Assembly: GCA_035578175.1 (NCBI GenBank)
Contig: JAQMRL010000004.1
Coordinates: forward strand, 76,559,401 to 76,623,400
DNA: 64,000 nt
Direction: 5' to 3'
DNA from: Catonia carolina
Lineage: Eukaryota; Arthropoda; Insecta; Hemiptera; Achilidae
The notes below the pieces were generated by a model. That model was given only the letters and a program-made list of their open reading frames with translations. It had not been told where the DNA came from and searched no databases. The stretch's first letter is position 1. Each line of letters opens with the position of its first letter. Positions 3,422-64,000 of the stretch are shown piece by piece. A program made the position numbers and the translations under genes.

Positions 3422-3423
3422 TA

Positions 3424-4172
3424 CGAAGGTTATCCAGAAAATAACCTCCGTTTTGAAATAAAAATTAAACGAGTGAAGATACAAAAACTTTATTATATAT
3501 ATATATATAAAACTACAGTTTTTCTCTATTTTTCGACATAGTTGCCAAACAGATTCAAGCACTTGTCGTACCTTGGAACAGTCTTTGAAATACTCTCTGC
3601 ATAAAAATCTGCCGCCTGTGAATGTAGCTAACCATTCACGGCATTTTGAAGCTCTTCGTCATTGGCGAACCGCTGAGATGCAAGCTTCATGTTCGGGAAC
3701 AGGTGAAAGTCACTAGGAGCCAAGTCCGGGCTGTATGGGGGATGATCGAAAACGTCCCATTTAAACTTGGCCAATAGTTCATTTGTTTTCTCACCCTCAT
3801 ACAGCTCGAAGAACAAATGAACTATTGGCCAAGTTTAAATGGGACGTTTTCGATCATCCCCCATACAGCCCGGACTTGGCTCATTGTGACTTTCACCTGT
3901 TCCCGAACATGAAGCTTGCATCTCAGCGGTTCGCCAATGACGAAGAGCTTCAAAACGCCGTGAATGGTTGGCTACATTCACAGGCGGCAGATTTTTATGC
4001 AGAGAGTATTTCAAAGAATGTTCCAAGGTATGACAACTGCTTGAATCTGTTTGGCGACTATGTCGAAAAATAGAGAAAAACTGTAGTTTTAATATGTAAA
4101 TAATAAAGTTTTTGTATCTTCACTCGTTTACTTTTTATTTCAAAACGGAGGTTATTTTCTGGATAACCCTCG
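3424..4172. mobile_element. fold-back mariner derivative (two inverted transposase C-termini)
   Basis: Two arms of about 363 bp (3424-3786 and 3811-4172) are nearly perfect reverse complements around a 24-bp spacer, flanked by TA on both sides. Each arm, read toward its outer end, encodes the same mariner transposase C-terminal third: TNELLAKFKWDVFDHPPYSP, then DFHLFPNMKLASQRF and the terminal GDYVEK. The N-terminal HTH domain and the first two catalytic Asp are missing. An AT microsatellite lies in the left arm (3494-3510). Transcripts would fold into a long hairpin. Confidence 0.9.
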
Positions 4173-4499
4173 TATATATTCTTCTGACATAAAACCATTA
4201 TAGCTCTGTTCTGACCAATTCTCTTTGCCAGATGTTCCTTTTTTTTTTTTTTTTTTTTTAATTAATGTTATCAATTTGTAGAACATCGTCAAGATTTTAA
4301 AGTGTTCATTTTCAATCGTAATATTACATTTTATGTGATAATTTATTTACATTACTATTAAACATGTTATTGAATATTTTTATCGTAGAATTATTTTTTG
4401 TAATTTTTTTTTACAAACAGTTTTAACAAATTTTAATTATGAAAAATAAGTTTTTTAAGTACTTTTCTGATGTTTACAATGTAAATTTATTATAAAGTA

Positions 4500-11832: not shown

Positions 11833-12160
11833 TTTTTTGGTTGGGTTTTGCATGTTATATCTAAGTAGAGTCTTTTCTTTTTCTCCATGTAATAGATATT
11901 CTATGTTTTGGCATTCATTGTTCAGAGGTGTTACTCTGTTTATATTACCAATAATTGGTCTACTTTGGGTTATTGAAACTGGTAATACTTCCTTCAGATA
12001 TTGTAAATGCATAACTTTTTATTAAATATTGTCACGAGTTTTGTTTGGGAGAGACCATCACGCGCCCTTCCTCTAATTTTTTTTGAACTAAAGCTTAAAA
12101 ATTGTATTTAAAGCAACTTTGAATATGTTGTTGAGTACAAATGAATAATAAAAGATAAAA

Positions 12161-13098
12161 AATTTGGTGTGAAACACTCACACAACTTTCTCTTGCCAAT
12201 GCAAATGATTAATAATAAACCTAACATCATTAATAAAATATTAGAAATAAACAAAAACTAACCTCAAAAACATAACCTTATTTTAATCATGAGTGAAACA
12301 CTCAAAATGAAAATCAACCTCAGTCTGGCTTAAAAATACGGAAAATCACTATTTCACGCTAAACTAGGCTCTGTAGAGAAAAATACGTTAAATAAAAGTT
12401 GTAGATCTTTAAATTTCCTATAAATTTGGTTATATACACTTTTGTCGTAAAATGCATACTAAGGCCAAAATCTTAAAAAAATCGATTTTTCACACGTTTT
12501 CGTGAGAAAAAATCAGAAAATCGCTAATTACTGCTAAACTAAGCGTCATACAAAAAAATGTTTGAAACAGAAGTTGTAGGTTTTTAAATTCTCTACAACT
12601 TTTATTATATAAGTTTTTGCGCTAAAATTTATATTAAAGCCGTAATCTTAAAAAAACAACGTTTTTACGTGAAAACAGCCTCACCGAGAATTTCAGCAAA
12701 CATGGCGCCTACCCTATCTTGTAGAGAATAAAAAATTGAGTAAAATAGGCGATTTTAAAAAAAATCGTAGGACCAGTTTTTGAGAAAATCGCAAAAAACT
12801 GAAAAATTATACGAATAAACTACTACTTCCGGTTGACCGATTTTGATGAAAATGTTCGTGTCGCGTCCGGTAGTGGTATGTAACTTAAGTTTCAAGTTTC
12901 AAGTTCGTACGATGTTCCGTTCTTGAGATATTCTGTTCACACACAGACACACACACACACACAGACCAATCGCTAAAAACATGTTTTTTGGGTTCAGGGG
13001 GTCTGAAAACGTATAGATCCGGTGAAAACTCGATTTTGAAAAATCGACATGAAAACAATACTTTCCTTCCTACATATTCATATAGGCAAGAGAAAGTA
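12161..13098 (-). mobile_element. HINE-like element, copy 1
   Basis: In minus sense it starts at ACTTTCTCTTGCC and ends with the hairpin GTGTGA-GTGTT-TCACAC and CAGA. It carries a GT/CA microsatellite near 12943-12962. Two diverged copies of an internal ~150-bp module (aaaagttgtag, then taaggcc or taaagcc) lie in tandem. It is nearly identical to the copy at 39142. Confidence 0.85.
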
Positions 13099-13309
13099 AA
13101 AATGGCCTTTAGAATAAGACAAATGGTATATTTTGTTTTATTAGGGGGTAAAAATCTTGTTTGGGAATGGTAATAATTTGGTAAAACATAATTGGGTAAA
13201 GGTAAAACATAATTTGAAAGCAACTTTGAAACTTTTTGAGTAAATTTCAATAAGGAAATGTAGAAAACCATCTTTAAAGTAAGATAAATAATTTGTGTTA
13301 TATTCCAAT

Positions 13310-14247
13310 TTTTACTTTCTCTTGCCTATATGAATATATAGGAAGGAAAGTATTGTTTTCATGTCGATTTTTCGAAATCGAGTTTTCACCGGATCTATAC
13401 GTTTTCAGACCCCCTGAACCCAAAAAACATGTTTTTAGCGATTGGTCTGTGTGTGTGTGTGAACAGAATATCTCAAGAACGGAACATCGTACGAACTTGA
13501 AACTTGAAACTTAAGTTACATACCACTACCGGACCCGACACGAACATTTTCATCAAAATCGGTCAACCGGAAGTAGTAGTTTATTCGTATAATTTTTCAC
13601 TTTTTTGCGATTTTCTCAAAAACTGGTCCTACGATTTTTTTTAAAATCGCCTGGTTTACTACATTTTTTATGCTCTACAAGATAGGGTAGGCGCCATGTT
13701 TGCTGAAATTCTGCGTGAGGCTGTTTTTACGTAAAAACATTTTCTTTTTAAGATTGCGGCTTTAATATGCATTTTAGCGCAAAACGTTATATAACAAAAG
13801 TTGTAGAGAATTTAAAATTCTACAACTTTTATTTCAAACATTTTTTTGTATAACGCTTAGTTTAGCGGTAATTTGCAAATTTCTGTTTTTTTCTCACGAA
13901 AACGTGAGAAAATTTGATTTTTTAAACATTTCGGCCTTAGTATGCATTTTACGACAAAAGTGTATATAATCAAATTTATAGAAAATTAAAAGATCTACAA
14001 CTTTTATTTATAGCATTTTTCTCTACAGAGCCTAGTTTAGAGAGAAAGAGTGATTTTCCGTATTTCTAAGCCAAAATGAGGTTGATTTTCATTTTGTGTC
14101 TTTCACTCATGATTAAAATTAGGTTATGTTTATTGAGGTTTGTTTTTTGTTTATTTCTTATGTTTTATTACTAATGTTAGGTTTATTATTAATTATTTTC
14201 ATTGGCAAGAGAAAGTTGTGTGAGTGTTTCACACCAGATTTTTTTAT
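13310..14247 (+). mobile_element. HINE-like element, copy 2
   Basis: This is a forward copy in inverted orientation to copy 1, about 210 bp away. It starts TTTTACTTTCTCTTGCCTAT and ends at the hairpin and CACACCAGATTTTT. The frame at 13293-13514 (FRPPEPKKHVF) recurs in other copies only because their DNA is similar. Confidence 0.85.
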
Positions 14248-15520: not shown

Positions 15521-15625
15521 GGGTGATTCAAAAAGAGCGCCGGTTTTGATATATCAAATTAAGAGATTTATTTTATTGAAAAACTGAAAATAAATACATC
15601 AACAAGTTCATCTTACCTTCCGATT

Positions 15626-16305
15626 TCATGTATGAAAAATGATGTCATGCATGTGTCCTCCTCTACTGCGCTGGCATGCATCAACTCTGTCCATGAAATT
15701 GGATATTACTGCACGACAAGTTTCGACTTCCATTTGCCCGATAACCCGTCGAATTTCCTCCTTCAAGTCATTGATGTTTCGGGGTTTATTGGCATACACC
15801 AATGACTTCAGATAACCCCAAAGAGGAAAGTCACAAGGCGTCAAGTCACACGACCTTGGTGGCCATTGATGGTCGGAATTACGAGAAATGATGCGATCCT
15901 GGAACCGTTCACGGAGCAACAACATTGTTTCTCGTGCAGAAACTGAATTTTATACGGGTGATATTGGAGATCGTACCGAAGAATTCTCCGTACAGAAGAA
16001 CATCGTAAACCCAATTGTTGAGAACGGCGACATATTGATTTTGCTGGGCTAACAGCCACACTGTCACGAACCAACGCAACGTTCTGCTCAGTTCGGCCAG
16101 AACGACGACGTCCAGAACTTTTAAGGTCGACTGTTGAACCCGTCTCAAAAAACTTTTTCATGAGCCTGCGAACTGTTGATTCATTCGGTGCTTCATTACG
16201 TCCTAGAGTACCGCGAAGTCGCCTGACAGTAGCCGCATAACTCTCTCCACTCTGGTAAAATGTTTTAACGATTAACACTCGTTGTGCAATAGTAAACTTC
16301 TCCAT
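15626..16305 (-). pseudogene. DUF4817-type transposase, frame-broken and internally deleted
   Basis: The start at 16305 (MEKFTIAQRVLIV) fits the family N-terminus. The HTH region spans about residues 8-60, and the deletion falls after about residue 120 (HEKQ). The remaining C-terminal part begins around RERFQDRIISRNSDHQWPPR and ends with RSRGGHMHDIIFHT. With only one of three catalytic acids left it cannot encode an active transposase. Closely related N-termini occur at 38782 and 44245. Confidence 0.8.
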
Positions 16306-16503
16306 GGTTAGACACAGACTGCGAGAGTACTACACTGCGAACAAGAGAAACTACAACTGAATCGTCAATCGGAATGTTCTCCGAAATAGAAATGAGGTCT
16401 AACAATGTTGCCAACCGATAAACAAAAATTTACCATTTCATATAATGAATTAATATAATAATTTCACTAACCTTCTTTTTAAACTGCGTCACCTTTATTG
16501 TAA

Positions 16504-16550
16504 TTTCTACTTACACGTGTTTCGGTGGATCCACCATCATCAGAGTAAAT
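16504..16550 (-). ncRNA. minimal hammerhead ribozyme-like motif, opposite arm
   Basis: This is the reverse-complement partner of the motif at 16639-16686. CTGATGA is at 16543-16537 on the minus strand, with the same stem II, GAAA, CACGTG and TA. On any one transcript the two arms are mutually complementary, so ribozyme folding competes with hairpin formation. Confidence 0.65.
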
Positions 16551-16638
16551 GAAAAAACAGTTTTATACAAGTGACTGAAGATGTATCATCTTCTGTAAAT
16601 TTTAAATAATGTGAAAAAATTTTTAGTTTCAATTTTTC

Positions 16639-16686
16639 ATTTACTCTGATGATGGTGGATCCACCGAAACACGTGTAAGTAGAAAT
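16639..16686 (+). ncRNA. minimal type I hammerhead ribozyme-like motif
   Basis: CTGATGA (16646-16652) is followed by one extra T, stem II GGTGG/CCACC with an AT loop, GAAA (16666-16669), the palindrome CACGTG as stem III, and TA (16676-16677). Stem I is formed by ATTTACT (16639-16645) with AGTA and AAT (16678-16681, 16684-16686) around a two-base bulge. The predicted cleavage is after A16677 (triplet GUA). The extra U after CUGAUGA departs from the textbook core but recurs in the second element. Confidence 0.7.
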
Positions 16687-17027
16687 TACAATAAAGGTGA
16701 CGCAGTTTAAAAAGAAGGTTAGTGAAATTATTATATTAATTCATTATATGAAATAGAAATAATTTCAAACTGCAGGATGCATTATAAAGATTTATTTTTG
16801 AAAAATTTACCAGCTGTTTGAAAACCGGCGCTCTTTTTGAATCACCCGTTATTTCTCAACCAAAAACTATTTGCAAAGGAATTTGTGTGCACTGTAAAAT
16901 GTTTCATTAATCAAGTATTTGTTTTAAACAAACTTAAATTACACAACTTTTTAAAGCTTCTGGTAATTTATCGATGCATATGTTAGTTAAGTTGGTTTTT
17001 CCTAAAACTAATTCTATTCTATTTAAT

Positions 17028-20465: not shown

Positions 20466-20584
20466 GCATTAACAGCTCTATTATGAGCAACCATGGTGGA
20501 AAATTAGCAGACCTTAGCTGGAAATCGAACCCAGGACCTCCGCGTTGTAGGCTAGCGCGCTACCATTACGCTACTGAGGCGGCC
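20466..20584 (-). mobile_element. tRNA-derived SINE related to group 3
   Basis: In minus sense: GGCCGCCTCAGTAGCGTAAT with an A box, anticodon-like arm, and B box GGTTCGATTTC. A cloverleaf is only partly formed and the body continues into an AT-rich tail, so this is a SINE head rather than a tRNA gene. Confidence 0.7.
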
Positions 20585-29518: not shown

Positions 29519-30388
29519 TTGGTGTGAAATACTCACACAACTTTCTCTTGCTAATATAAAATGTAAAACATAACCTAATTTTAATCATGAGTAAATGACG
29601 CAAAATGAAAATCAATCTCTCTTTGACTTAAAAATATGAAAAATAACAAATTGACTCTAAACTAGGCTATGTAGAAAAGAATACTTAAAATAAAAGTTGT
29701 AGACTTTTATTTCCTCTAATTTTGATTGTATACACTTTTGTAGTAAAATGCTGACTTACTGAAGTCGTAATCTTTAAAAATAATATTTTTTACAGATTTT
29801 AATGAGTAAAATACAGAAAATCATTAATTGACACTAATCCAAGCATTGTAGAAAAAAATGTTTGAACTAAAAGTTGTAGGATTTTAAATTTCTACAAATT
29901 TAGCATTATACTTTTGTCCTGAAATGCATATTAAGGTTGCAATCTTTAAAAAAAAAAAACTTTTTACCACAGGAGCATAGTCCCTCAAGAATTTTAGCAG
30001 ACATGGCATTAACCCTATACACAGTTAAAATGTAATACATTTAAAAATGGAGTAATTGAGGGGATTTAAAAAAATTGTTATAGCCATTTTTGAGAAAATT
30101 GCTAAAAAGTGAAAAAACGCACAGATAACTTTATTACTTCCAGATGACTGATTTTGATAAAATAATTTTTTTTGGGTTTCCTAGTGGTACCTAAATTAAG
30201 TTTCAACTTTCTATTATTGTTTGTTCTTAAAATATTTTGACACACACACCAATCACTAAAAACAAGTGTTTTGGTTCAATGGGCCTGAAAACATGTATTT
30301 CCGCTGAAAACTCAATTCAAAAAAATCAACTTGAAAATAATACTTTCCTGCCATATATATTTATACAGGACAAAAGAAAGTAAAAATT
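29519..30388 (-). mobile_element. HINE-like element, diverged copy
   Basis: Old copy with many substitutions. The terminal hairpin (GTGTGAGTATTTCACAC in minus sense) and the ACTTTC start survive; the microsatellite has shrunk to acacacacc. Confidence 0.75.
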
Positions 30389-31770: not shown

Positions 31771-32137
31771 CCTTAAAAACAAATCTTGAAAACATATATA
31801 AAAATGGTTTGAACATCAAATATTATTACAATTATATTATTTATTACAGAGTAATAAAAAGTTGTTTATTAAATTGTTTTATTAATTAGTAGAAATAATT
31901 AGAACTTGGTGCTGTTATGTAAATAAGATTTTTAATAATACGTAGATTCATGTTGCGTGTAGTCCATGATATTGTACATAATTTTAAATTTCATTTTATA
32001 AAATTGATTTATTGAATTAATTGTTTTGATAGTTTATTACTCATTCATTATTGTTAGAAAAGGAATGCAATTAATACTTGTTTAAATAAGCTAAAATAAT
32101 TTATTTAGCTTTTACTGGATAGAAAAGTCATGCAAAA

Positions 32138-33013
32138 TAATCTGGTGTGAAACACTCACACAACTTCCTCTTGCCAATGCAAATAATTAACAATATAACC
32201 TAACAGTAATAAAATAATAGAAATTGAACATAACCTAATTTTAATCATGCGTGAAAGATGCAAAATGAAATTCAACCTCAGTTTGGCCTAAAAATACGGA
32301 AAATCACTCTTTCATGGTAAACTAGGCTCTGTAGAGAAAAATGTGCGAAATAAAAGTTGTAGATCTTTCAATTTCCTATATTTGATTATATTATACACTT
32401 TTGTCATAAAATGCATGCCAAGGCTGAAATCGTACATAAATCGATAATTACCGCTAAACTAAGCGTTATACAAAAAAATGTTTGATATAAAAGTAGTAGG
32501 ATTTTAAATTCTCTACAAGTTTTATTATATACATTTTTGCGCTATAATGCATATTAAAGCCGCAATCTTAAAAAACAATTTTTTTACGTGAATTCTAGGA
32601 GAGGCTGTTTAGCCTCTACTAGAATTTCAGCAGACATGGCGCCTACCCTAACTTGTTGAGCATAAAAAACTTAGTAAATGAGGCGATTTTTAAAAAAATT
32701 GTAGAAGCCGTTTTTGAGAAAATCACAAAAAAGTGAAAAATGACACGAATAAACTACTACTTCCGACCGATTTTGATGAAAATGTTCGTGTCGGGTCCTC
32801 TAGTGGTACCTAACTTAAGTTTCAAGTTCGTACAATGTTCCGTTCTTGAGATATTCTGTTCACACACACACACAGACCAATCGCTAAAAACATGTTTTTT
32901 GGGTTCAGGGGGTCTGAAAACGTGTAGATCCGGTGAAAACTCGATTTCGAAAAATCGACATTAAACCAAAACTTTCCTTCCTGTATATTCATATAGGCAA
33001 GAGAAAGTAAAAA
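32138..33013 (-). mobile_element. HINE-like element
   Basis: Complete ends. It has a short templated palindrome at 32588-32624 (TTCTAG.. GAGGCT.. AGCCTC.. CTAGAA) replacing a few consensus bases. Confidence 0.85.
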
Positions 33014-33547
33014 TTATAAAAATATTTATTTATTTAAAAATTTTCAGCCTTGAAGTACTTAGAACAAAGAAACTGTGCCATATGAAACAGAATAAAGACT
33101 ATATAAAAATGCTGTAGTGGTTTAATTTATAATTCATTTAGCAAAAATTTTGCATGTTTTAGATTCATTTCAAAATTTATTGCATTGGATATAAAGTTGT
33201 GCGAGTGTGAAAGGTCGTGATTGATGTTTGCTTGTTTATTTATTTTAAATATCTGAAATAATAATTCAAGGTTTTATCTATAATTATAATCAAATTATAA
33301 ATTATCTTTTTAATTAGGTACTATAAGAATTGTGTTCATTCATATCACTGTTATGCATGTAAAAAACATTCAAAAATTTTAGAAAAAATTGTAAAATTAT
33401 TATAATGTATTTCATAAAAATACAGTGAAATCTCCCTAATTATTTCAGTCTTGAAATCCAATTGGTTATGAATATGCCAAAATAAGCAATTGTTCATAAG
33501 TTACTGTCATGAACTTATGGGAATTCATTCTTCTTTTTCGAGTGTCA
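33014..33547. other. AT-rich noncoding stretch
   Basis: Contains an isolated pogo/Tigger-like terminus (cagtgaaatctccctaatta) at about 33423. Otherwise nothing is recognised. Confidence 0.35.
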
Positions 33548-33599: not shown

Positions 33600-33976
33600 T
33601 TTTATTCCTATTTTGTGTACATTGCAATCTGTTCAATTCAGAACAATAAGCAACCCGATAACCCAATGAGATGAGGATGATGTGCATGACGTGTAAATGA
33701 GGTGTAGTCTTGTACAGACTCAAGTCAACCACTCTTGAGAGAGTATGGTTAATTGAAACCATAGAGTAATAAAGCTTTACTACTTATTACTTACTTTATT
33801 ACTCTATGATTGAAACCCAACCATCAAAGTACACCGGTAACCACCGTCTAGTATTCAAATCCGTATAAAAGTAACTACCTTTACTAGGATTTGAACCAGG
33901 AACCTTCGTCTCCGAAAATCAGCTGTTAAACAGCTGATTTTGGCGACGACTTTACCTCTAGAACAACCCGGTGGGT
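33600..33976 (-). mobile_element. tRNA-derived SINE (group 2) with a micro-insertion
   Basis: Full-length minus copy. A 48-bp palindromic insertion (33760-33813 region) is flanked by ATTGAAACC on both sides. Confidence 0.85.
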
Positions 33977-34040
33977 TAATTGAAATTGAAATATATATTT
34001 CTAACCACCAGAACACGGTAACATAAAACACTTACCAATG

Positions 34041-34081
34041 TTTATAGCACTTTCGTGTATCTTGTACACATCTTCAGTAAA
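34041..34081 (-). ncRNA. minimal hammerhead ribozyme-like motif, intact arm
   Basis: In minus sense: TTTA, CTGAAGA, extra T, GTGTA-CAAGA-TACAC with all five stem II pairs, GAAA, GTGC, TA, then TAAA closing stem I. This is the best preserved motif of the second element. Confidence 0.68.
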
Positions 34082-34208
34082 TAAAAATTTCTTTTTACCT
34101 CAAAATTTAAAACTTCCTGCTCCTACCATGGTAGATAACGAATCTCATTCCTTATCTACCATGGTAGGAGCAGGAGGTTTTAAATTTTGACATAAAAAGA
34201 AATTTTTA

Positions 34209-34250
34209 TTTACTGAAGATGTGTACAAGATACAAGAAAGCGCTATAAAC
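34209..34250 (+). ncRNA. minimal hammerhead ribozyme-like motif
   Basis: CTGAAGA (34213-34219), extra T, GTGTA with loop CAAGA and TACAA, GAAA (34236-34239), GCGC as stem III, TA (34244-34245). Stem I is TTTA (34209-34212) with TAAA (34246-34249). One stem II pair is lost in this arm (A instead of C at 34235). Confidence 0.6.
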
Positions 34251-34395
34251 ATTGGTAAGTGTTTTATGTTACCGTATTCTGGTGGTTAGAAATATATATT
34301 TCAATTTTAAATAATACGGCTGTTTAAAATCCTACATAGGATGTTTGATAAAATAATAAGATGTTATTTAATAAAAAGTAACTTTATTTACGAAA

Positions 34396-35319
34396 AAATC
34401 TGGTGTGAAACACTCACACAACTTTCTCTTGCCAGTGCAAATAATTAACAATAAACCTAACATTAGTAATAAAACATTACAAAAAAAAACTAACCTCAAT
34501 AAACATAACCTAATTTTAGTCATATATGAAAGACGCAAAATGAAAATCTATCTCAGTTTGCCTTAAAAATACGAAAAATCACTCTTTCACACTAAACTAG
34601 CCGCTGTAGAGAAAAATGCTCAAAATAAAAATTGTAAATCTTTTTATTTTCTATAAATTCGATTATATACACTTTTTTCATAAAATGCATACTAAGGCCG
34701 AAATCTTAAAAAAATCGATTTTTCACACATTTTTGTGAGAAAAAACAGAAAATCACTAATTACCGCTAAACTAAGTGTTATATAAAAAATGTTTGAAATA
34801 AAAGTTGTAGAATTTTGAATTGGCTACAACTTTTATTACATAAATTTTTGCGCTAAAATGCATATTAAAGCCACAATCTTAAAAAAACAATTGTTTTACA
34901 TGAAAACAGCCTCACCCAGAATTTCAGCAAACATAGCACCTACACTATCTTGTAGAAAATAAAAATTTAGTAAAGCAGGCGATTTTTAAAAAAATTGTAG
35001 GACCAGAGTTTGAGAAAATCGCAAAAGAGTGAAAAATTACACGAATAAACTACTACTTCCGGTTGACCGATTTTGATGAAAATGTTCGTGTTGGGTCCGG
35101 TAGTGGTATGTAACTTAAGTTTCAAGTTTCAAATTCGTACGATGTTCTGTTCTTGAGATATTCTGTTCACACACACACACACAGACCAATCACTAAAAAC
35201 ATGTTTTTTGGGTTCAGGGGGTCTGAAAACGTGTAGATCCTGTAAAAACTCGATTTCTTAAAATCGACATGAAATCAATACTTTCCTTCCTATATATTCA
35301 TATAGGCAAGAGGAAGTAA
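34396..35319 (-). mobile_element. HINE-like element
   Basis: Complete ends and a CA microsatellite (35170-35182). It belongs to the subfamily with gggtccggtag rather than cgcgtccggtag. Confidence 0.85.
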
Positions 35320-35840
35320 TAAACAAAACAAGAATTGATAACAACATTAGAACGTTCATATTAACTGATTTTATTAGACTACTGTGAGTAATATTTAATT
35401 ATACTTTAAAACATCAGTTTTGTAATTTCGATATTGTATAATTCCTTTCTCTCACATTTTCATAGTACTGTTTCTAAAAGTGAATGTTTACGTGTGTTTT
35501 GTGTTATTATTATACTACAAGTACTTACGTACAAGTATTAAATGTCAATTGTGTGGTCCTTTTTTTAATTTACTTTTTCAAATAAAATGTCAGAAAATTA
35601 AATGTTAATCGCAAGTTTGGTAGTTTTAGGTTGTTGTTTATTTACCAAATGTTTTGTTTCAAACAGGTTTTTACATAACTAATAAATTTCAATATATGAA
35701 CGACTGGTTGCTCGGCAAATGTCCGAAATCAATACACAGTTTCTGACCAAACATTAACTGTTAACATATCTACTGTTATAGGTCAATGCTTCATTAATTC
35801 TTTCCTATAAGTGATTTAGGTCATGAATATTTTTTAAATA
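35320..35840. other. noncoding stretch
   Basis: AT-rich, no recognised content. Confidence 0.4.
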
Positions 35841-39060: not shown

Positions 39061-39141
39061 GCACCACCATCAAATTCTCACTTTCCATCCATATGCAAAA
39101 GGCAATCTCGTGACTTCAGCATCTATACCTTTACTCTACTA

Positions 39142-40076
39142 AAAATCTGGTGTGAAACACTCACACAACTTTCTCTTGCCAATGCAAATAATTTACAATA
39201 TAATTTAACATTAGTAATAAAATATTAGAAATGAACAAAAACATAACCTTATTTTAATCATGAGTGAATGACGCAAAATGACAATCGAACTCAGTTTGGC
39301 TTAAAAATACGGAAAATCACGCTTTCACGCTAAACTAGGCTCTGTAGAGAAAAATACGTTAAATAAAAGTTGTAGATCTTTAAATTTCCTATAAATTTGG
39401 TTATATACACTTTTGTCGTAAAATGCATACTAAGGCCAAAATCTTAAAAAAATCGATTTTTCACACGTTTTCGTGAGAAAAAATCAGAAAATCGCTAATT
39501 ACTGCTAAACTAAGCGTCATACAAAAAAATGTTTGAAACAGAAGTTGTAGGTTTTTAAATTCTCTACAACTTTTATTATATAAGTTTTTGCGCTAAAATT
39601 TATATTAAAGCCGTAATCTTAAAAAAACAACGTTTTTACGTGAAAACAGCCTCACCGAGAATTTCAGCAAACATGGCGCCTACCCTATCTTGTAGAGAAT
39701 AAAAAATTGAGTAAAATAGGCGATTTTAAAAAAAATCGTAGGACCAGTTTTTGAGAAAATCGCAAAAAACTGAAAAATTATACGAATAAACTACTACTTC
39801 CGGTTGACCGATTTTGATGAAAATGTTCGTGTCGCGTCCGGTAGTGGTATGTAACTTAAGTTTCAAGTTTCAAGTTCGTACGATGTTCCGTTCTTGAGAT
39901 ATTCTGTTCACACACAGACACACAGATACACACACACAGACCAATCGCTAAAAACATGTTTTTTGGGTTCAGGGGGTCTGAAAACGTATAGATCCGGTGA
40001 AAACTCGATTTCGAAAAATTGACATGAAAACAATACTTTCCTTCCTATATATTCATATAGGCAAGAGAAAGTAAAA
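39142..40076 (-). mobile_element. HINE-like element (young subfamily)
   Basis: Nearly identical to copy 1 at 12161 over its length, including the tandem module and cgcgtccggtag. The microsatellite differs (acacacagacacacagatac). Confidence 0.88.
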
Positions 40077-41639
40077 AGATGGTTGGTAAGGTCTAAATTT
40101 TGATATGTCCTTTTTTGTGGCCTTGGATTGATAGGATATGTACACTACTGAACTAGAGAGATCTACAGAGCTTTTAACATCAGATAGTAATCTATCCCAT
40201 CTTCTTTACTTTGAAGTGAATTTAGCATGCATTATGTCTCTTAAATACAAAAACCTCAGGTGATAACCACCTGCAGCTAAATTAGCAACGCTGGCTGCTT
40301 TAGCAACCAGCCACCCATTTTTTTAGCTGTCACCCACATTGGTGACTCCAATGCGACCCCTCTCAATTCGAGCACTTGCTAGTTTCGGTGACATTAAAAA
40401 ATAGTTCTGTTTCCTCTCACATGATTTAAATGTCACGAACAATGTTATAAGTTAAACATTAATAAAATTCATGGTAGTTAAAATAGAGCATTAAATTAAG
40501 GTGGAATGAGCAATGTTAAGGACCTTCAACTAAATTATCTAAGGAAATTTTTTCCTAAAAAAGATCATTAAATTAGAAACATTAAAACAAGCTTTAATTC
40601 ATTTTATATTTACTTTTAAACACACGTTTATACTAATACATACTAATTTGGGGTCTATTTACTTTATTAAAGCTTGAGAGGGTATTTCTGATGCAGGATC
40701 ATATGGATTTTTTATGTAGGGACAACAGCTGAATTATGGTTTCATCATAATAAACGAAACCGAATATTCCTTGTCTTCTATTTAAATACTAATGTGAAAT
40801 AACAACCTTCTTTCCCTCGAAGAACTCATTGTTTACAAACATTTTGTAAAACATTCGAACAATATTTTGTTCAGGCATTTCTGTTACACATGAAAGTATA
40901 ATGTCTTATTATTTACGTCATGAAAAGAAAAAATAAGTTTTATGTGGCCTTCGGGCCAGCCCAGTCAGTAAGCTAGTAGTAAGTCGCTATTATTTGTTAA
41001 GTAACACTGGTTGGGCAAGTGACTTTATATGGTGACCAGTTGACAGCCATCCATGAACAAACTCTATTGGGGGTCTCTGTTGAAATTCACATCTCTAATC
41101 CACGTCAAAAAAAAAACAGCAAAAAGCAGCGATCAAATTGGGTAGTAGTCACAGTGTACAGTTCCCAATAACAAATAAAAGCTAAAAAAAGTTTTATGAA
41201 GCCTAAGATTCAATAAATTCATAAACCGTACAATGCAGATATCAAACTTTACATTTAATAATACCCGATTTATACTGTATGAATGAAGAATTTGGAGACG
41301 CATTTTATCGTTTCAAATATCGCTCCAAGAAACGGTAGCCATCTGTGTTAAAATTTCAAAAATATACTAGAAATAAGAACTTTAATAACAAACTTTCTTT
41401 CTCTAATAAATTGTTCACTGTTTAGTCGCTTAGGACTTTATTGTTGATGTGATCTTAAATAAATAAACAAAAAATGAAAATAATTAACTAAACTAACGTA
41501 ATATAAAGATATATTACGTTGATATATTATATTATGTTGTAAATATATCAACATAAAATACAGAATTAAATTATTGGTACAGTATTTTTTTTACATCAGC
41601 CCAAATTTAGACGTTTTTGGAAGAAACATTTGGTTAATA
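40077..41639. other. long stretch without recognised content
   Basis: No gene, SINE, HINE-like copy or transposase is seen in either strand. It lies upstream of the candidate XPO6 start and could include distal promoter sequence. A short piece near 41437 (attgttgatgtgatcttaaa) resembles 20230. Confidence 0.4.
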
Positions 41640-45315: not shown

Positions 45316-45466
45316 GCAGTTATTTTTTGTTTCTTGGAAATTCTAGAAATACTCTCTTGTGAAAAAATAGTGTGAGAGGTATGAGGGGTGTTTTTTTTGA
45401 ACCTCCATTAGGCCATAAAAACGAGGGCTGTCCAGAAAGTAACAGACGTTTTGAAATAAAAAAAAA

Positions 45467-46408
45467 TCTGGTGTGAAACACTCACACAACTTTCCCTTGC
45501 CAATGCAAATAATTTACAATATAATTTAACATTAGTAATAAAATATTAGAAATAAACAAAAAACTAACCTCAATAAACATAACCTTATTTTAATCATGAG
45601 TGAAACACTCAAAATGAAAATCAACCTCAGTCTGGCTTAAAAAACGGAAAATCACTATTTCACGCTAAACTAGGCTCTGTAGAGAAAAATACGATAAATA
45701 AAAGTTGTAGATCTTTAAATTTCCTATAAATTTGGGTATATACACTTTTGTCGTAAAATGCATACTAAGGCCAAAATCTTAAAAAAATCGATTTTTCACA
45801 CGTTTTCGTGAGAAAAAATCAGAAAATTGCTAATTACTGCTAAACTAAGCGTCATACAAAAAAATGTTTTAAACAGAAGTTGTAGGTTTTTAAATTCTCT
45901 ACAACTTTTATTATATAAGTTTTTGCGCTAAAATTTATATTAAAAGCCGTAATCTTAAAAAAACAACGTTTTTACGTGAAAACAGCCTCACCGAGAATTT
46001 CAGCAAACATGGCGACTACCCTCTCTTGTAGAGAATAAAAAATTGAGTAAAATAGGCGATTTAAAAAAAAATCGTAGGACCAGTTTTTGAGAAAATCGCA
46101 AAAAACTGAAAAATTATACGAATAAACTACTACTTCCGGTTGACCGATTTTGATGAAAATGTTCGTGTCGCGTCCGGTAGTGGTATGTAACTTAAGTTTC
46201 AAGTTTCAAGTCCGTACGATGTTCCGTTCTTGAGATATTCTGTTCACATACACACACACACACACACACAGACCAATCGCTAAAAACATGTTTTTTGGGT
46301 TCAGGGGATCTGAAAACGTATAGATCCGGTGAAAACTCGATTTCGAAAAATCGACATGATAACAATACTTTCCTTCCTATATATTCATATAGGCAAGAGA
46401 AAGTAATA
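45467..46408 (-). mobile_element. HINE-like element (young subfamily) within mariner
   Basis: Same subfamily as 12161 and 39142 (cgcgtccggtag). CA microsatellite at 46248-46270. Ends abut A-rich sequence, with no target duplication beyond A's. Confidence 0.85.
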
Positions 46409-46573
46409 AACTAAGTAAAAAAACCAATTTTTATTACATATATTTTGAAGGTTAACTCTTAGGTTATTTTTGTACGTAATTGCCAAGTAAATTAAGGCAT
46501 TTATTGTAACGTGGTACAAGCTTTTCAATGCCTTCTTTGTAGTAATCTGCTGCCTGCGAGTTCAACCACTGGT

Positions 46574-55122: not shown

Positions 55123-55164
55123 GTACGCACAGTACGGTATAATTGATTGATTGTTAGATTAATT

Positions 55165-55301
55165 TTTACTTTCTCTTGCCTATACGAATATATAGGAAGG
55201 AAAGTATTGTTTTCATGTCGATTTTTCGAAATCGAGTTTTCACCGGATCTATACGTTTTCAGACCCCCTGAACCCAAAAAACATGTTTTTAGCGTTTGGT
55301 C

Positions 55302-55335
<34 letters not shown>

Positions 55336-56155
55336 CGTTTGGTCTGTGTGTGCGTGTGCGTGTGTGTGTGTGAACAGAATATCTCAAGAACGGAACATCG
55401 TACGAACTTGAAACTTGAAACTTAAGTTACGTACCACTACCGGACTCGACACAAACATATTTATCAAAATCGGTCAACCGGAAGTGGTAGTTTATTCGTG
55501 TAATTTTTCACTTTTTTGCGATTTTCTCAAAAACTGGTCCTACGATTTTTTTTAAAATCGCCTGGTTTACTCAATTTTTTATTCTCTACAAGATAGGGTA
55601 GGCGTCATGTTTGCTGAAATTCTGGGTGAGGCTGTTTTCACGTAAAAACGTTGTTTTTTTAAGATTACAGCTTTAATATGCATTTTAGCGCAAAACTTTA
55701 TATAATAAAAGTTGTAGAAAATTGAAAATTCTTCAACTTTTATTTCTAACAATTTTTTGTATAACGCTTAGTTTAGCGGTAATTTGCGATTTTCTGTTTT
55801 TTTTCTCATGAAAATGTGTGAAAAATTGATTTTTTTAAGATTTCGGCCTTAGTATGCATTTTACGACAAAAGTGTATATAATTTAATTTATAGAAAATTA
55901 AAAGATCTACAACTTTTATTTAAAGCATTTTTCTCTACAAAGCCTAGTTTAGAGAGAAAGAGTGATTTTCCGTATTTCTAAGCTAAACTGAGGTTGATTT
56001 TCATTTTGCATCATTCACTCATGATTAAAATAAGGTTATGTTTTTAAGGTTAGTTTTTTGTTTATTTCTAATATTTTATTATTAATGTTAGGTTTATTGT
56101 TAATTATTTGCATTGGCAAGAGAAAGTTGTGTGAGTGTTTCACACCAGATTTTTT
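55165..56155 (+). mobile_element. HINE-like element with expanded GT/GC tract
   Basis: Forward copy in XPO6 intron 5. The microsatellite at 55301-55372 holds GT and GC repeats with a duplicated tttggtctgtgtgtg unit. Confidence 0.87.
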
Positions 56156-56344
56156 TATTTTACGTTTTCAGTTAATATTTTCACTATTCCCTTGTCCAAT
56201 TTCTGAGGTAATTTATGAAATTATGAGTTTGCTAATTTTTGTGTCCTACTGGAAGGAACTAGGGATCTAACAAACTGTGCAACAAAACATTGGCGAAATT
56301 TAACAAACATTGGCAAATTGCCTTCCTGACGTTTTAATACTTGG

Positions 56345-58737: not shown

Positions 58738-59766
58738 TTTTTTACTTTCTCTTGCCTATATGAATATATAGGAAGGAAAGTATTGTTTTCTTGTCGATTT
58801 TTCGAAATTGAGTTTTCACTGGATCTGCACGTTTTCAGACCCCCTGAACCCAAAAAACATGTTTTTAGCGATTGGTCTGTGTGCGTGTGAAATATTTTGT
58901 GTACAAAATATTTCAAGAACGGAACATCGTACGAACTTAAACCTTGAAACTAAGTTACATACCACTACTGGACCTGACACGAACCTTTTCATTAAAATCG
59001 GTCAACCGGAAGTAGTAGTTTATTTGTGCAATTTTTCATTTTTTTGCGATTTTCTCATAAACTGTTCCTATGATTTTTTTTAAAAATTGCTTAGTTTACT
59101 AAATTTTTTATGCCCTGCTAGATAGGGTAGGCGCCATGTTTGCTGAAATTCTTGGTGAGGCTGTTCACATAAAAGAAATGTTTTTTTTTTTTAAGATTGC
59201 AGCGTTAATATGCATTTATTTTAGTGCAAAATTTATAAAATAAAAAATGTAGAGAATTTAAAATCCTACAACTTTTATCTCAAATATTTTATTGTATAAC
59301 GTTAAGTTCGGTGCCTGAGCTTCCTACGTGTGACGCAGTTGAGTTCCCGGGACTATATTCGACAGACATACGTGCGATGTGGTTTGTAATGGGGCTAACC
59401 CACGGGTTGACTGCGGATTCTAGCGTTATAAGGGTGCTTGGTACCGTGTCCGTCACCCTCTGGGGGCCTTGTGTTGTGCTGGGGGGCCTAATAGGCCCCC
59501 CAGACCTTGAGATCTACAACTTTTATTTAGAGCATTTTTCTCTACAGAGCCTAGTTTAGCGTGAAAGAGTGATTTTCCATATTTTTAAGCCAAACTGAGG
59601 TCGATTTTCATTTTGCGTCTTTCACTCATGATTAAAATTAGGTTATGTTTATTGAGGTTAGTTTTTTGTTTATTTCTAATGTTTCATTACTAATGTTAGG
59701 TTTATTGTAAATTATTTACATTGGCAAGTGAAAGTTGTGTGAGTGTTTCACACCAGATTTTTTAAG
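58738..59766 (+). mobile_element. HINE-like element with a GC-rich replacement
   Basis: Forward copy in XPO6 intron 7 with intact ends. Between about 59309 and 59508 the usual AT-rich middle is replaced by unrelated GC-rich sequence. Confidence 0.85.
59309..59508. other. GC-rich block of unknown origin inside a HINE-like element
   Basis: About 200 bp (gtgcctgagcttcctacgtg to ccccagaccttga) with far higher GC than anything nearby. It ends in a strong hairpin at 59479-59503 (CTGGGGGGCC, loop TAATA, GGCCCCCCAG). An open frame crosses it but has no recognisable homology and runs on into the repeat. It could be a captured gene or transposon fragment. Confidence 0.6.
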
Positions 59767-62747: not shown

Positions 62748-64000
62748 CGAGGGTTGTCCAAAAAGTAAGTTTCCCTAATATTTATGTTGAAGTAGAAGTG
62801 ATGCATGCATATATCGCGCACAGGGAATTTTAGTATGGGTGTATTGGCATCACTTGCAACCGGTCCGGCGACCACTGAATGCTCAGTAGTCAGTAAACAG
62901 CATACCGAAATGGAGACTCCACTTCGTTTTGCCGCCAGTTGTGAAATACGCGGTGTTATTCGTTTTTTCACTGCAAAAAATGAATCGGCTGTAGAAATTC
63001 ATCGCCAGTTATGCAGTGTTTATGGTGAAGATGTAATGTCAATCCAAATGGTTCGTCGTTGGCGACAAATGTTTATTGAAGGCAGAGAAAATGTTCACGA
63101 TGATGAAAGAAGTGGCCGACCTGAGACTACCCGCCAAGCCGACGTCGTTACAGCTGTGCGTGAGGTCATTGACTCCGACAAGTGGCTTATGCTAGATGAA
63201 ATCATGATTGCACTGCCACCAAATATTGAAATTAGTCGATCCAGTCTTCACAATATCATGGTTGAAGACCTTCAACTTTCAAAAGTGTGTGCAAGATGGG
63301 TCCCGCGATTATTGTCAGACATCCATAAACAAAAACGTTTAGCAGCTGCTCGATGTTTTTTGCAATTGTTTAAAGATGAGGGCGATGCCATATTTTCAAG
63401 AATAGTTACTGGTGATGAAACGTGGGTCCACCATTCAACTCCCGAAACCAAACGTCAGAGTATGGTATGGCAAAAAAAAGGTGAGAAAGGTCCCAAAAAA
63501 GCGAAAGTGACTCAGTCGGCAGGAAAAGTGATGGCTACTGTTTTTTGGGACTGCCGCGGAGTATTAATGATGGATTATCTACCTCGTGGAACAACAGTTA
63601 ATGCAGAACGTTATTGTGAATTGTTGACCAATCTTCGTCGCGCCATTCAAAACAAACGACGTGGGCTTTTGTCACCCAAAGTTCTGCTCCTTCATGACAA
63701 CGCCCGACCACATACGGCTTGTGCAACAGCTGAGCTTCTTGCTAAATTCAAATGGCAAATTTTTGATCATCCTCCATACTCTCCAGACCTTGCACCTAGT
63801 GACTTCCATCTGTTCCCGCAGCTTAAAAATCATCTGGGCGGTCGGCGCTTCGCTAATGAAGACCAATTGAAACATGAGGTCGATAACTGGTTCAAAAATT
63901 CGGCGGTAGAATGGTATGACAAAGGAATATAGAAACTGTTGCCAAGGTACGAAAAATGTTTAGAATTAAATGGAGATTATGTAGAAAAATAAGTAAATGT
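62748..64000 (+). mobile_element. mariner element, nearly intact (right end outside window)
   Basis: TA (62746-62747) and the left terminus cgagggttgtccaaaaagta mark the left end. The element holds a full-length transposase frame, in sense orientation within the XPO6 intron after 62178. The right inverted repeat would lie just after 64000. Confidence 0.92.
62911..63932 (+). CDS. mariner transposase (DD34D), premature stop near the C-terminus
   Basis: The cut-and-paste transposase begins most plausibly at METPLRFAASCEIRGVIRFF (62911); the frame is open further upstream to 62805, but that part lies in the 5' UTR of the family. The HTH domain spans about residues 1-110, with the WVPRLL-type linker (ARWVPRLL) after it. 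Catalytic residues are D in VTGDETWVHH, D in LLHDNARPH and D in YSPDLAPSDFHLF, the last two separated by 34 residues. A TAG at 63930 follows YDKGI, after which the family tail (KLLPRYEKCLELNGDYVEK) continues in frame to a normal stop. The protein thus lacks only about 20 C-terminal residues. Activity is uncertain. Confidence 0.9.

Follow-up and report, generated by a model that had tools for sequence, protein, structure and literature searches.

The window, the whole 64-kb stretch of Catonia carolina DNA that was analysed, contains a transposon relic that we take to be mariner-like, with a DUF4817 domain (PF16087, E = 1.5e-13) and 27-nt terminal inverted repeats at 15521-15547 and 16821-16847. 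Nested in this relic, as the preliminary description had recognized, lies a second insertion, here called E1, which is built of two head-to-head arms with a putative hammerhead ribozyme core on each strand. The features of the locus are as follows:

15521-16847, minus strand: host of E1, the DUF4817 transposon relic, bounded by the 27-nt terminal inverted repeats
16424-16435, plus strand: left target-site duplication, AAAAATTTACCA, of which the final base agrees with the E1 arm as well
16436-16800, no strand assigned: whole E1 insertion, 365 bp, with two head-to-head hammerhead-bearing arms, a 76-nt spacer and one tail, delimited by a 12-bp direct repeat just outside both ends
16435-16556, minus strand: left arm of E1, an inverted pseudo-LTR-like end without tail, 122 nt identical to the right arm
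16512-16543, minus strand: putative hammerhead core of the left arm, predicted cut after 16512 on the minus strand
16557-16632, no strand assigned: spacer between the arms, 76 nt
16633-16754, plus strand: right arm of E1, a pseudo-LTR-like end, 122 nt identical to the left arm
16646-16677, plus strand: putative hammerhead core of the right arm, predicted cut after 16677
16652-16654, plus strand: ATG in the right core, formed by core base A9, the added U and the G that opens stem II; the predicted cut follows base 26 of its frame
16755-16800, plus strand: tail, 46 nt, on the right arm only (compare the 31-bp tail described for one inverted pLTR; PMC3846280)
16801-16812, plus strand: right target-site duplication, AAAAATTTACCA

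The element had initially been placed at 16435-16754. These bounds hold for the arms, which match at 122 of 122 positions (16435-16556 on the minus strand against 16633-16754 on the plus strand) and lie within an inverted repeat, 16430-16556 with 16633-16759, that is 98% complementary over 127 nt. The insertion itself is longer and spans 16436-16800, because the 12-bp direct repeat at 16424-16435 and 16801-16812 abuts the end of an arm on one side and the end of the tail on the other. A 12-mer that recurs 300-450 nt downstream is found at 9 of 62,000 window positions, the E1 site included, and five of these nine are not simple sequence. The duplication is A/T at 10 of its 12 bases, the flanking bases at 39 of 63, and the window overall at 67.5%. 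With its inverted arms and a tail on one of them, E1 has the terminal structure described for Penelope-like elements, pLTRs in direct or inverted orientation, though its tail, at 46 nt, exceeds the 30-40 bp reported for optional pLTR tails; the short target duplication of such structures is likewise present, at 12 bp. No second copy of the E1 arms, or of the arms of a further palindrome (E2, below), was seen in the 64-kb window.

Each E1 arm reads, in order, ATTTACT, CTGATGA, an unpaired T, GGTG-GATC-CACC, GAAA, CACGTG, TA and AGTAGAAAT, which is the order of a type I hammerhead. In its letters each arm has the layout of the minimal hammerheads found in Penelope-like elements (PLEs), with stem I, CUGANGA, stem II, GAAA, a rudimentary stem III, UH and the closing strand of stem I, apart from one unpaired U added after A9. 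The preliminary reading of a minimal Penelope-type layout is thus supported, its CTGATGA, GAAA, CACGTG and UA elements recur in both arms, and the predicted cleavage position agrees with the one it had given, after 16677. The stems needed revision. Stem II does not have five pairs: the 13-nt gap between CTGATGA and GAAA holds the unpaired U and then four pairs (GGTG/CACC) closed by GATC, and a fifth could only be a U.G pair using G12 of GAAA, which would break the core, even if RNAfold also draws it. Stem I can be read as seven pairs around a 2-nt bulge, as proposed, and equally well as six contiguous pairs including one G-U. The palindromic stem III is real as a palindrome, ACACGTGT, 8 nt and loopless; in cis it gives two pairs and a 4-nt loop, and four pairs per side form only in a dimer. 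The two cores lie on opposite strands, so that one transcript never holds both. An extra base in the hammerhead core was reportedly described for a viroid by de la Pena and Flores in 2001, presumably at the same position as the extra U of E1.

The two-part core pattern CTGATGA...GAAACACGTGTA occurs twice in the 64-kb window, once in each E1 arm, and in none of 100 shuffles. A strict descriptor that combined sequence with pairing, from the core through stem II, GAAA, stem III and UH to stem I, and that was composed after E1 had been seen, matched at three places in the window and nowhere in 1000 dinucleotide shuffles of the whole window. A relaxed descriptor matched at four places, which are all four arms of E1 and E2, against a mean of 0.4 per shuffle in 200 shuffles; it scored 25.0 for both E1 cores and 21.5 and 19.5 for those of E2, while the best match of a shuffle stayed at or below 17.5 in 95% of cases and reached 21.3 at most. 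The palindromic element with two hammerhead-like cores is thereby borne out, and a chance origin of the cores was rejected on these three comparisons with shuffles; the descriptor postdates E1, and E2 was not known before it.

E2 was found as the third and unexpected place of the strict descriptor (34077, minus strand):

33976-34314, no strand assigned: E2, head-to-head palindrome with hammerhead-like cores at 34077 (minus) and 34213 (plus)

The partner core at 34213 was picked up by the relaxed descriptor and escaped the strict one because of a mismatch in stem II. The E2 core consists of CTGAAGA, an extra U that again forms an ATG, GAAA, a stem III of AGTGCT or AGCGCT, UA, and a stem I of four pairs, with a stem II of 5 bp and a 5-nt loop in which one pair is broken in the plus arm. 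The arms are 95% complementary and 3 nt apart. They differ at 8 of 163 positions, two of them within the 41-nt ribozyme where 2.0 would be expected, so nothing in these differences would suggest preservation of the ribozyme after insertion. The flanks of E2 hold no target duplication of 6 bp or more, and a repeat that adjoins it, starting near 33979, is presumably a tRNA-derived SINE. Alignment of E1 with E2 gave no convincing similarity, and they are therefore treated as unrelated elements. By relaxed score one E2 arm barely rises above chance and the other does not; the case for it rests on the strict test and on its location in a second palindrome.

A match to a hammerhead family in Rfam, the first check named in the preliminary description, did not appear: there was none at gathering scores, nor when stretches of 441 and 66 nt were searched with E values of up to 10. 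Rfam does return microRNA precursors at 16481-16708 (E down to 5.9e-20), all below their gathering scores; these apparently arise from the long hairpin and are a trap for automatic annotation. By energy folding, which scores neither tertiary contacts nor core pairs nor protein, the hammerhead is not the favoured secondary structure of an isolated E1 arm: the 49-nt arm has its minimum free energy in another register (-8.6 kcal/mol, against -0.2 for the hammerhead pairs), and its pair probabilities are 0.97-0.98 for stem II and only 0.13-0.14 for stem I. In the 205-nt right half these become 0.92-0.93 and 0.0015-0.0016. The best dimer of two arms (-33.8 kcal/mol) pairs through the stem II palindrome and not through stem III, and in neither arm of E2 is the hammerhead the minimum-energy fold. 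The full E1 transcript is one long hairpin at -210 kcal/mol (-208 for the other strand), with a probability of 0.0 for the hammerhead pairs probed, four in stem II and three in stem I. Since each transcript would contain one sense core and its perfect antisense copy, the ribozyme in this copy of E1 is predicted to be silent, its arms pairing with each other. The folding models weaken the case for a free-standing ribozyme rather than settle it, because they omit tertiary contacts and protein.

No reverse transcriptase (RT) accompanies the pair, as had been noted from the start: the insertion contains neither an RT nor a GIY-YIG domain, and no Penelope RT was found in the window. E1 is accordingly not an autonomous Penelope-like element with both domains in a single open reading frame (ORF). 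The window has 34 ORFs, counted from stop to stop, that reach at least 100 aa; Pfam found GIY-YIG in none of them, and a six-frame motif scan gave no match. RVT_1 is present in two of the 34, at E = 7.8e-15 in one and, below its cut-off, at 5e-6 in the other. Both were weighed as possible remnants of a Penelope element and put aside because their motifs look LINE-like; neither had a match among solved structures. Four patterns searched in viral contigs gave 0 matches each. In prokaryote genomes the core pattern had one match, in Flavobacterium (L001:471-505), which lacks a stem II at the right place and was taken as chance. The literature search, whose coverage stopped short of the main papers on PLE hammerheads and structures, returned no head-to-head pair of hammerheads without an ORF and no PLE hammerhead that overlaps a splice donor.

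The closest parallels are with the EN-containing Penelope copies described from Adineta vaga and with the hammerhead of Poseidon from Anolis carolinensis (PAc), neither of which entered into the design of the searches. Copies in A. vaga have inverted pLTRs, most frequently head-to-head among the inverted arrangements, with target duplications of 8-10 bp in some copies and none in others, and with a 31-bp tail on one inverted pLTR (PMC3846280). Like E1, the A. vaga copies Pen2a, Pen2 and Pen3a combine head-to-head inverted terminal repeats with an optional one-sided tail and an ORF that starts inside the repeat; their target duplications are 9, 10 and 8 bp against 12 in E1, and copies without one resemble E2 (PMC3846280). 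They differ from E1 in framing an ORF or, in some copies with target duplications, other, unrelated sequence captured between the pLTRs, where E1 has only its 76-nt spacer; the tail is 31 bp against 46 nt; and the repeat of Pen2a takes in the first 12 codons of the ORF, or 22 with the tail, whereas that of E1 extends 103 nt past the ATG (PMC3846280).

In PAc, as described, the ORF begins at stem II of the hammerhead and the cut lies 26 bp downstream; the protein cuts and extends both strands, reverse transcription begins most often 111-118 bp into the ORF, and the tail is the stretch between two RT start sites (PMC11167929). In the elements studied here the cut follows base 26 after the ATG in E1 and base 27 in E2, the tail-less arm ends 103 nt (E1) or 96 nt (E2) after the ATG, and the tailed arm of E1 ends at 149. 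E1 thus shares with PAc a start codon at stem II, a cut 26 nt downstream and an insertion end about 100 nt into the ORF, and differs from it in that its frame stays open for only 8 codons if no intron is removed and in that its ribozymes lie face to face on opposite strands, a comparison made with the published description of PAc (PMC11167929). The spacing fits PAc better than A. vaga: the cut at 26 and the arm ends at 103 and 149 in E1 compare with 26 and 111-118 in PAc. The PAc ribozyme is described as inactive without protein, and its hammerhead mutants as having no effect on insertion in vitro (PMC11167929).

Hammerheads of PLEs are described as usually minimal and without helix III (PMC6155905, PMC7761336), and those in tandem may cleave as dimers (PMC7761336). 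The dimeric type I hammerheads of newt and axolotl share with E1 a stem III that is short and palindromic and holds only weakly inside a single molecule; their dimer action within a molecule involves tandem copies, whereas the E1 copies are inverted and the modelled dimer lacks stem III pairing (PMC6155905, PMC7229834). Metazoan retrozymes, which may rely on Penelope enzymes, have type I hammerheads in RNAs of about 170-400 nt (PMC7229834, PMC7761336). The non-LTR retrozymes of metazoans resemble E1 in being small, free of protein-coding sequence and low in GC, with a type I hammerhead, but are tandem repeats, whereas E1 and E2 are inverted with one hammerhead per strand (PMC7229834). Being inverted, the E1 arms do not form the tandem array that characterizes metazoan retrozymes, in which every unit measures a few hundred bp and carries a type I hammerhead.

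We consider it slightly better than an even chance (about 0.55) that E1 represents the pseudo-LTR ends of a Penelope-like element whose coding region was lost or never copied, produced by Penelope machinery in trans and copied from both cut strands. We do not file E1 as a Penelope element; it is likely the product of one. No new class of element is needed, because inverted terminal repeats and a one-sided tail are among the ends described for ordinary Penelope insertions (PMC3846280). The suggestion of a non-autonomous, ribozyme-bearing mobile unit stands in so far as E1 has its own insertion with a 12-bp target duplication; propagation as such a unit is not supported, since an ORF-less Penelope product suffices and the palindrome is predicted to silence the ribozyme. 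Under the Penelope reading, a Penelope-type RT/GIY-YIG protein acting in trans would have cut both target strands of the host transposon with a 12-nt stagger. On each cut strand reverse transcription would have started internally, roughly 100-150 nt past the ATG: on one strand from a proximal site, which leaves no tail, and on the other from a distal site, which leaves one. Both short cDNAs would have run back past the ribozyme and been joined 5' end to 5' end, giving the mirror image. Initiation from two sides with joining of the cDNAs would account for the mirror image, the perfect identity of the arms, the absence of an ORF and the presence of a tail on one side only. Presumably it is the parent element that benefits from the ribozyme, which would act in tandem transcripts of that element, possibly as a dimer through the palindromic stem III. 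Several results speak against a Penelope origin: the frame opened by the ATG runs for only 8 codons in E1, and for 9 in either arm of E2, before it closes, unlike the start of an intact PLE; RT and GIY-YIG domains are absent from the insertion, as is any match to a hammerhead model of Rfam; and an arm folds unfavourably even when its mirror copy is left out. The same holds for the tail, which exceeds the reported length, for the repeat of Pen2a, which reaches less far into its ORF than that of E1, for the lack of relatives in viral contigs, and for E2, which has no target duplication of 6 bp or more.

A Penelope-derived insertion could also have acquired its mirror image by self-priming, the nascent strand folding back to copy its own arm with the 76-nt spacer as the loop. 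Arkhipova et al. favour this, as a hypothesis, for A. vaga Penelopes on account of the palindromes found at their inverted junctions (PMC3846280). The complete identity of the E1 arms (122/122) agrees with it, and the E2 arms, only 3 nt apart, suit a snap-back, so that the centre of E2 fits self-priming better than two-sided initiation. Fold-back does not predict, however, that one copy should end 46 nt short of the tail, as two RT starts do (PMC11167929), and according to the same A. vaga authors self-priming on a sense template would give the opposite, tail-to-tail arrangement (PMC3846280). The present data do not separate the two routes; we regard self-priming as possible, at odds of the order of one to three. 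A family that amplifies independently, palindromic and retrozyme-like or MITE-like, in which the hammerhead processes its own RNA, seems to us improbable. Its attraction lies in the occurrence of two unrelated palindromes of like layout within 64 kb, in the compactness of E1 with its own target duplication, and in the metazoan retrozymes, which are likewise small, carry type I hammerheads and may draw on Penelope enzymes (PMC7229834, PMC7761336). Against this, retrozymes are described as tandem while E1 and E2 are inverted, the arms of neither recur in the window, the palindrome locks the ribozyme in silico, and the differences between the E2 arms spare the ribozyme no more than the rest (2 of 8 in 41 of 163 positions, expected 2.0).

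Long terminal inverted repeats with a target duplication are also what a foldback or MITE-type DNA transposon would show, its hammerhead-like letters being accidental. The window has many other palindromes, with 23 inverted pairs that measure at least 40 nt and lie within 1200 nt; RNA folding prefers structures other than the hammerhead; and the best relaxed score among the shuffles (21.3) is close to that of one E2 core (21.5) and above that of the other (19.5). The strict descriptor nevertheless stayed silent in all 1000 shuffles, its unforeseen match fell in another palindrome of like layout, and the ends of E1 are made asymmetric by the 46-nt tail; we consider such a transposon very unlikely. 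A false mirror image created by the assembly would explain perfectly identical arms, but the tail and the target duplication are placed as an insertion would place them, the spacer is not mirrored, and E2 has a like layout with eight differences between its arms, which makes an artefact scarcely credible.

If E1 and E2 derive from Penelope-like elements, they bear on how such elements form inverted ends and on what their hammerheads do. As two ORF-less copies that retain little but the ends, one of them with boundaries fixed exactly by a 12-bp target duplication, they would reveal the points from which copying must have started on either side, and they provide a compact system in which two-sided initiation can be weighed against self-priming.

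The start codon and the ribozyme may also overlap a splice donor:

16675-16775, plus strand: possible intron, 101 nt, with a GTAAGT donor at 16675 and a CAG acceptor ending at 16775; the predicted ribozyme cut lies inside the donor

The predicted cut in E1 splits the donor (16675-16680) as GTA/AGT. GTAAGT follows the ATG in both of these unrelated elements, at an offset of 24 in E1 and 37 in E2, where it starts 10 nt after the cut (34035, minus, and 34255, plus); in the window as a whole, 0.5% of positions on the plus strand and 0.8% on the minus strand have GTAAGT 20-40 nt downstream. Removal of the predicted intron reopens the E1 frame for 16 codons (MVDPPKHVMHYKDLFL). At least 40 nt was required between donor and acceptor, and a nearer CAG, ending at 16705, was passed over. 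Reopening does not apply to E2, because its frame stops before the donor. The pattern was noticed afterwards and the ranges were picked with the data in view, so we offer the overlap as a hypothesis only.

Penelope elements keep their introns (PMC3846280). One conceivable arrangement, which we think distinctly doubtful, is that the hammerhead acts as a three-way switch at the start of the Penelope ORF, with translation, splicing and self-cleavage competing for one segment of RNA. Once cleaved, the RNA would have no intact donor; once spliced, it would have lost the cut site together with the 3' half of stem I. Such a switch would explain why Penelope RNAs retain introns on transposition, and if start codon, ribozyme and splice donor truly overlap, the purpose of the ribozyme becomes directly testable.

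Other features were noted in the window. A dispersed repeat of about 0.8-1 kb occurs in both orientations at 12157-13102, 13308-14244, 29566-30388, 32134-33033, 34393-35322, 39141-40077, 45461-46409, 55152-56158 and 58739-59763, and includes an inverted pair at 12157-14244. A palindrome of 753 bp at 3422-4174 is 94% self-complementary, with no match there in the relaxed hammerhead scan. An open frame of 376 aa at 62802-63932 has mariner-type transposase domains (Transposase_1, HTH_48 and DDE_3), and a tRNA-family match of 40.9 bits at 20510-20580 on the minus strand is possibly the head of a tRNA-derived SINE.
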